DNA of 64,000 nucleotides from Methanocellales archaeon (GTDB taxonomy: Archaea; Halobacteriota; UBA148; JAUWXC01). Position numbers and translations under genes: made by a program. The stretch spans positions 124,001-188,000 of the forward strand of contig JAUWQV010000003.1 in NCBI GenBank assembly GCA_030610945.1, in the 5' to 3' direction. Numbering within the stretch: the stretch's first letter is position 1; each line of letters opens with the position of its first letter. This document shows positions 32,084 to 32,916 of the stretch, piece by piece. The notes below the pieces were generated by a model. It did no database searches, was not told the origin of the DNA, and saw only the letters and a list, made by a program, of their open reading frames with translations.

Positions 32084-32137
32084 TGCCTACACTTCCATCC
32101 ATCTTTAAACATACTCGGCACTAATAAAGTTACCGAA

Positions 32138-32211
32138 TGGGGGCGGTAGGATTTGAACCCACGATCGGCTGGTCTGGAGCCAGCTGCCCTTCCGGACTAG
32201 GCCACGCCCCC
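32138..32211 (-). tRNA. tRNA-Trp (CCA), no intron
   Basis: RC GGGGGCGTGGCCTAGTCCGGAAGGGCAGCTGGCTCCAGACCAGCCGATCGTGGGTTCAAATCCTACCGCCCCCA; loop CTCCAGA. Confidence 0.92.
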
Positions 32212-32217
32212 ATAAGA

Positions 32218-32547: not shown

Positions 32548-32675
32548 TGGACCGGTCGGGATTTGAACCCGAGGCTTATAGGCGCAGTCAAAGCGCTCTC
32601 TACCAATAAGGATGTCATGCTCTTTCAGACCATGACATTTGCCAAGGTAGCGATCTACCCCTGATCTACCGGCCC
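32548..32675 (-). tRNA. tRNA-Ala (GGC) with two introns: 37/38 (about 32606-32639) and variable loop (about 32576-32597)
   Basis: RC GGGCCGGTAGATCAGGGGTAGATCGCTACCTTGGCA[34 nt]TGGTAGAG[22 nt]GCCTCGGGTTCAAATCCCGACCGGTCCA; G3:U70 alanine identity pair; 72 nt mature. Confidence 0.9.
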
Positions 32676-32783: not shown

Positions 32784-32875
32784 GGGCCCGTAGCTTAGTC
32801 TGGTTGGAACTCGTAAGAGCAATATGCGCACGGCTGATAACCGTGAGGTCGGGCGTTCAAATCGCCCCGGGCCCA
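32784..32875 (+). tRNA. tRNA-Ile (GAT) with a D-arm intron (about 32809-32825)
   Basis: GGGCCCGTAGCTTAGTCTGGTTGGA[ACTCGTAAGAGCAATAT]GCGCACGGCTGATAACCGTGAGGTCGGGCGTTCAAATCGCCCCGGGCCCA; 75 nt mature. Confidence 0.9.
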
Positions 32876-32916
32876 CTATTTAGATAAAAAATAAAAAAAG
32901 AAGGAAAAAAAAGTAG

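Follow-up and report, generated by a model that had tools for sequence, protein, structure and literature searches.

Two predicted introns, at positions 37/38 and 45/46, in the tRNA-Ala(GGC) gene of a Methanocellales-affiliated archaeon with an alpha'2-type splicing endonuclease

Archaeal tRNA genes that carry more than one intron, some of them at non-canonical sites, have been described in the Thermoproteales/Thermoproteota, and two reviews cite Sugahara 2008 and Fujishima 2010 for them (PMC4090602, PMC4033280). In the same reviews, non-canonical tRNA introns go with endonucleases that have a specificity loop, chiefly those of Thermoproteota and ARMAN, and euryarchaea that have alpha4 or alpha'2 enzymes are described as having few introns, at canonical positions; both of these enzyme types are there confined to strict or canonical bulge-helix-bulge (BHB) motifs. 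Another paper reports that homodimeric enzymes also cut bulge-helix-loop motifs, whether or not these lie within a tRNA (PMC8707768). Position 45/46, in the variable loop, is already recorded as an archaeal intron site (PMC4090602). Among Euryarchaeota, tRNAs with two introns are known from Methanothermobacter thermautotrophicus and Methanopyrus kandleri (PMC4033280). The tRNA-Thr(GGU) of Caldiarchaeum subterraneum has introns at 24/25 and 45/46 that are polymorphic in one population (PMC3293823). Non-canonical tRNA introns are also found in the tiny genome of ARMAN-2, with its epsilon-2 endonuclease and broad range of intron substrates (PMC12397907, PMC6379350), and in the Asgard lineages Atabeyarchaeia and Freyarchaeia, where 92-95% of the tRNA genes are interrupted (PMC11291895).

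Here we describe a tRNA-Ala(GGC) gene with two inserts, found in a 64,000-nucleotide stretch of archaeal DNA (the window). A two-intron archaeal tRNA with an intron at 45/46 is an already known kind; the lineage and the enzyme type are what is unexpected. A euryarchaeal host, as presumed in a first-pass annotation that was made from the letters of the window alone, is borne out: the organism is Met12-like, is affiliated with Methanocellales and has a miniature genome of about 1 million bases. Like the multi-intron tRNAs of Thermoproteales/Thermoproteota, those of this host have several introns per tRNA, non-canonical sites that include 45/46, and similar introns in different tRNAs and across canonical and non-canonical sites. 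Thermoproteales/Thermoproteota, however, have an (alpha-beta)2 endonuclease with a crenarchaea-specific loop, whereas the enzyme here is a single loop-less alpha'2 type in a euryarchaeal host. M. thermautotrophicus and M. kandleri likewise have more than one intron in a euryarchaeal tRNA, but they belong to a different lineage; the majority of tRNA genes in the present host contain introns, and its sister species differ in their intron content. C. subterraneum shares with this locus the use of 45/46 for a second intron and its presence or absence among close relatives; in C. subterraneum a mobile element was found, together with a scattered tRNA fragment, whereas a non-systematic look beside the euryarchaeal gene turned up no such element. 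ARMAN-2 resembles our host in genome size and in its non-canonical introns and differs in its endonuclease, the enzyme here being of N-C-N-C alpha'2 architecture with C-terminal catalytic residues and neither an ARMAN nor a crenarchaeal loop. The Atabeyarchaeia and Freyarchaeia also combine a very high interrupted share with non-canonical positions, although the share here is lower, about 60%.

The covariance model RF00005 (cmscan) called the tRNA gene at exactly the limits given in Table 1 (44.9 bits, E 1.4e-7). ARAGORN missed it when run on the window and called the unspliced 128-nt gene as Pro, but returned Ala(GGC) once both inserts were deleted; the two-intron gene was parsed by hand and by the empty sites of relatives. 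Removal of both inserts restores a complete standard tRNA of 72 nt, as in the intronless orthologues, with the G3:U70 pair, discriminator A and the variable loop AGGCC. The first insert separates A37 from U38 and the second separates G45 from G46. Exon 1 matches the intronless orthologues of two relatives (G005 and G008) by sequence comparison except at one base of the D-loop.

Table 1. Features of the tRNA-Ala(GGC) locus and neighbouring tRNA genes, in window positions
Feature	Position	Strand	Basis or remark
tRNA-Ala(GGC), two introns, 128 nt	32548..32675	-	cmscan RF00005; orthologues elsewhere in the order
Exon 1, positions 1-37: acceptor 5' strand, D-arm, anticodon arm to A37, anticodon GGC	32640..32675	-	
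Intron 1, 34 nt, canonical 37/38	32606..32639	-	absent from G005, G008 and G010; present in G004, G006 and G002
Exon 2, 8 nt, positions 38-45: U38, GGUAG, A44 G45	32598..32605	-	mature sequence as in intronless orthologues
Intron 2, 22 nt, non-canonical 45/46 (variable loop)	32576..32597	-	empty sites of relatives; BHB register test
Exon 3, positions 46-73: GCC, T-arm, acceptor 3' strand, discriminator A	32548..32575	-	
tRNA-Ile(GAU), 17-nt D-stem (23/24) intron	32784..32876	+	head to head with the Ala gene
tRNA-Gln(UUG), 27-nt canonical 37/38 intron, BHB with 9-bp inner helix	32218..32317	-	missed by ARAGORN

The limits of both inserts are set by relatives and require no folding. Three genomes of a sister family of the order (G005, G008 and G010) have an intronless 72-mer Ala(GGC) in which the stretch in question reads CUACC UUGGCAU GGUAG AGGCC UCGGG. 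The 34-nt insert alone, followed by the loop AGGCC, occurs in Met12 (G004) and G006, which represent a second family, and in G002, a species of the window genome's own genus. Both inserts are found in the window genome (G000), in the closed genome of Met33H (G003, CP061209.1, 987146 bp), where the 128-nt gene is identical letter for letter, and in Yes46-10 (G001). The 22-nt insert is absent from G002, from G004 through G006, and from G008 and G010. A slide of either insert by a single base would alter the mature tRNA. The first-pass annotation had read the gene as a tRNA-Ala(GGC) in which 34 nt are inserted at 37/38 and a further 22 nt in the variable loop, the latter cut at AG^A and AA^G to leave the loop AGGCC and a 72-nt tRNA with G3:U70. 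The covariance model and the empty sites bear out the first part of this reading, and the naturally intronless 72-mers bear out the second.

Intron 1, being common to another family, appears to be the older of the two, and intron 2 probably arose within the lineage of the genus, with a precise loss in G002. Five proteins of the region give the tree ((G000,G003),(G001,G002)) with support of 100 and 94% and Met12 as outgroup; on this tree, an intron at 45/46 in the window genome, Met33H and Yes46-10 but not in G002 suggests one gain in the ancestor of the genus and one precise loss in G002, or else transfer. Recombination inside this small five-protein region may be an alternative source of the pattern. 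The Yes46-10 assembly also includes a 594-bp contig (C20) that carries the Ala/Ile locus as a second, divergent allele. Its Ala gene has a different, unrelated intron at 37/38, surrounded by a fully paired UUGG/CCAA, and no intron at 45/46. This allele may be a strain variant or a foreign contig in the assembly.

The 22-nt insert can form a BHB in which the strands GUAG-AG^A-GCGC and GCGC-CUAU-AA^G pair in a 4-bp central helix that includes one G-U. The core of this motif lies in the exact register dictated by the empty sites of the relatives. When the insert was shuffled 200,000 times with the exons held fixed and the cut sites preset from the relatives, 0.07% of the shuffled inserts did as well (p ~7e-4), the criterion being a central helix of 4 bp together with at least four pairs in the inner helix. 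The copy in Yes46-10 differs from that in the window by two substitutions, both at paired positions and both with pairing kept: CUAU becomes CUAC, turning G-U into G-C, and GCGC becomes GCGU, turning C-G into U-G. The outer exon helix of the 45/46 motif is weak, with one base pair in strict register, and in the predicted fold its place is taken by pairing of the anticodon GGC with GCC at 46-48 across an internal loop. On this model the motif falls between a strict and a relaxed BHB. The description 'near-ideal' in the first-pass annotation is thus true of the core, with its 4-bp helix, single G-U and 3-nt bulges, and too generous for the whole hBHBh' motif.

The 34-nt intron has a poorer core than the 22-nt intron, as its centre UUGG/CCUU has two Watson-Crick pairs and two U-U appositions; the exon helix measures 5 bp, and the inner helix is strong, reaching 8 bp in the G002 copy. 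Bulges of 3 nt on either side of a 4-bp helix are therefore found at the 45/46 intron, with its weak outer helix, and only in part at 37/38. The BHB core of the second intron appears in the unconstrained fold of a precursor that lacks intron 1. In the full precursor, a form with a closed anticodon stem and the BHB form are predicted to be about equally stable (-52.1 and -51.4 kcal/mol).

A single gene with tRNA-intron endonuclease domains was found in the window genome. It encodes an EndA of 348 residues with both PF01974 domains, which aligns with the alpha'2 enzyme of A. fulgidus along nearly its whole length (residues 34-337). Residues Y246, H257 and K287 of A. fulgidus, which we take to be the catalytic ones, align with Y, H and K of the C-terminal half of EndA; the N-terminal repeat has retained the Y and the K and lacks the H. 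By these alignments the enzyme is of alpha'2 type, with two fused alpha-like repeats arranged N-C-N-C and the C-terminal one predicted to be catalytic. Against the alpha subunit of A. pernix, EndA has a 9-residue gap exactly at the crenarchaea-specific loop, right after K44, and R at the position of K44 itself; the EndA proteins of relatives across the order are likewise without this loop. One EndA gene is also not what an (alpha-beta)2 endonuclease of the Thermoproteales type would require. A gene for an RtcB ligase is present. Genome size and intron richness had suggested an ARMAN/Micrarchaeota epsilon-2 endonuclease, but the three units, catalytic middle unit and ARMAN-specific loop of that type were not found in EndA, and its closest solved enzymes are those of A. 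fulgidus alpha'2 type. An ARMAN/Micrarchaeota host was likewise rejected, as the genome adjoins the Methanosarcinales/Methanocellales member Met33H.

Taken together, the sequence comparisons suggest that this is very probably a functional, single-copy and essential tRNA-Ala(GGC) gene from which both introns are removed by protein splicing. The sole EndA, acting as a homodimer of alpha'2 type, would cut at the 3-nt bulges that flank short helices, and an RtcB-type ligase would rejoin the exons. The 45/46 intron would be recognised through the 4-bp helix in which GUAG of the exon (positions 40-43) pairs with CUAU at the 3' end of the intron, with the bulges AG^A and AA^G and the inner GCGC hairpin. 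Because GUAG/CUAU pairing takes up the 3' strand of the anticodon stem, this stem would have to open in the precursor, or not yet have formed, at the second cut. Excision, the order of cutting, recognition by EndA and ligation are all predictions of this kind. The weak outer helix at 45/46 argues against the proposal in combination with reviews that limit alpha'2 enzymes to strict or canonical BHBs (PMC4033280, PMC4090602), as do the poor central helix of intron 1 and the precursor fold with a closed anticodon stem, which is about as stable. The 45/46 motif does fit the published description of substrates of homodimeric enzymes (PMC8707768).

Copy number and codon use bear on the need for the gene. 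A pattern search found one such Ala(GGC) gene per genome, except for the extra allele in Yes46-10. Among the tRNA genes identified in closed Met33H there is one each for Ala GGC, CGC and UGC, and the second intact tRNA-Ala(GGC) gene that the first-pass annotation had allowed for was not found there; the gene is also the sole Ala(GGC) gene in the window genome. Of 259 Ala codons counted in nine window genes, 87 are GCC or GCU. A sole Ala(GGC) gene with these codons in use should be essential, with its inserts either removed or tolerated.

Alanyl-tRNA synthetase recognises mainly the G3:U70 pair of the acceptor stem, which counts in favour of toleration, that is, of a 22-nt insert kept unspliced as an extra variable arm formed by the GCGC hairpin. 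The extended arms of class II tRNAs are likewise inserted between 45 and 46, the insert includes a 4-bp hairpin, and ARAGORN takes the 94-nt insert-bearing form as tRNA-Ala(GGC). We nevertheless consider retention improbable, as the loop is the class I AGGCC elsewhere in the order, including the sister species of the genus, and the arm lacks the conservation of class II arms. Furthermore, pairing of CUAU with the exon GUAG would not be needed if the arm were retained, yet it exists and is stronger in Yes46-10, and extended arms in class I tRNAs are known only as oddities such as the nematode nev-tRNAs (PMC4033280). That the copy is decaying or mis-assembled and its role is filled by another, sound tRNA-Ala(GGC) gene might be entertained for a seven-contig genome with an estimated completeness of 82%, but is very hard to reconcile with intact exons, an identical gene in closed Met33H, where no second Ala(GGC) gene was found, and a Yes46-10 copy with two compatible changes.

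Excision of both introns, the reading we prefer, would place the gene among many others of its kind in this host. The covariance model finds 21 of 37 tRNA genes interrupted in the window genome, to which tRNA-Tyr is to be added; the latter was considered as a missing or split gene until a DNA search found a normal gene with one intron at 37/38. Other tRNAs of the window genome carry introns with standard BHBs. In Met33H at least 26 of 43 tRNA genes (about 60%) are interrupted by 27 introns, of which at least seven are non-canonical, these counts being a lower bound as some isoacceptors were not found. The non-canonical introns lie in Ala(GGC) at 45/46, in Ile(GAU) in the D-stem at 23/24, in Arg(CCU) at 29/30 and in the D-loop of four Leu tRNAs. 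This amounts to 0.63 introns per tRNA gene; the archaeal mean is 0.21 and that of Thermoproteales 0.84 (PMC8450103). In the cultured Methanocellales relatives Methanocella paludicola and RC-I MRE50, 4 of 48 and 5 of 54 tRNA genes bear introns (PMC3146512). The tRNA set of the host is among the most intron-rich outside the groups known for such introns; the main text of the Met12 paper makes no mention of tRNA introns (PMC11176372).

The neighbouring tRNA-Ile(GAU) was labelled Ala(agc) by ARAGORN and became Ile(gat) when its intron was deleted; with the Gln(UUG) and Ala(GGC) genes, it illustrates that this program, as run here, misreads or misses several such tRNAs. An empty site for its D-stem intron is present on contig C20 of Yes46-10, and G005 and G008 have an intron at the same site. 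In Yes46-10 and G002, Ile(GAU) has a second, long intron at 37/38, and the two-intron state is therefore not unique to Ala. The first-pass annotation had singled out two introns in one tRNA as noteworthy in a euryarchaeon. The non-canonical site and the euryarchaeal host hold, but the gene is not alone in its kind, given the two introns of Ile(GAU) in sister species and the at least seven non-canonical introns of Met33H. The tRNA-Trp(CCA) gene at 32137-32212 on the reverse strand is without an intron, and G005 of the order has a Trp intron. Archaeal tRNA-Trp genes often hold an intron, in which a box C/D RNA can be nested.

Several introns of these genomes are related to one another. Of 496 intron pairs compared, 35 score higher than the best pair of 20 shuffled sets; a few of the 35 are comparisons of one tRNA between two genomes. 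In Met33H, Ile2(CAU) has at 37/38 an intron nearly identical to the one in the D-loop of Leu(CAA) (score 84 versus 38). Related introns in different tRNAs and at different sites suggest that introns have moved between tRNAs and positions, as in Thermoproteales. In a second case of presence in one genome and absence in a near-identical sister, the 52-nt intron of Arg(UCU) is present in the window genome, has kin in Yes46-10 and is precisely absent from Met33H. For the 22-nt Ala intron, no kin was found among the introns of the genome, the best local score being 18 against shuffled maxima of 25-38.

On balance, we lean slightly towards the view that a loop-less alpha'2 endonuclease serves a disrupted tRNA set near the level of Thermoproteales, non-canonical at no fewer than four positions, with introns that are at present on the move from one tRNA or site to another. 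In that case the rule by enzyme type, in which alpha4 and alpha'2 go with few, canonical introns, would fail, and the genus would be a place to catch gain and precise loss of tRNA introns among near-identical genomes. With zero, one or two introns in the same gene of sister genomes, the lineage offers a direct test of both processes.

Some smaller features of the introns may also be recorded. Related introns of the form CAACCTTTT..AAAAGGTTGATCAAAA occur in Asn, His, Arg, Gly and Thr genes of G000 through G004 (for example at loci L017, L033 and L036), and the motif has four genome-wide matches, each inside a tRNA intron. The interrupted Arg(UCU) copy of the window genome (L036) has mismatches in the T-stem and acceptor. 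The intron of Asn(GUU) is 39 nt long in the window genome (L017) and 12 nt long in Met33H, a difference of one 27-nt block of this spreading intron family, located within the intron.
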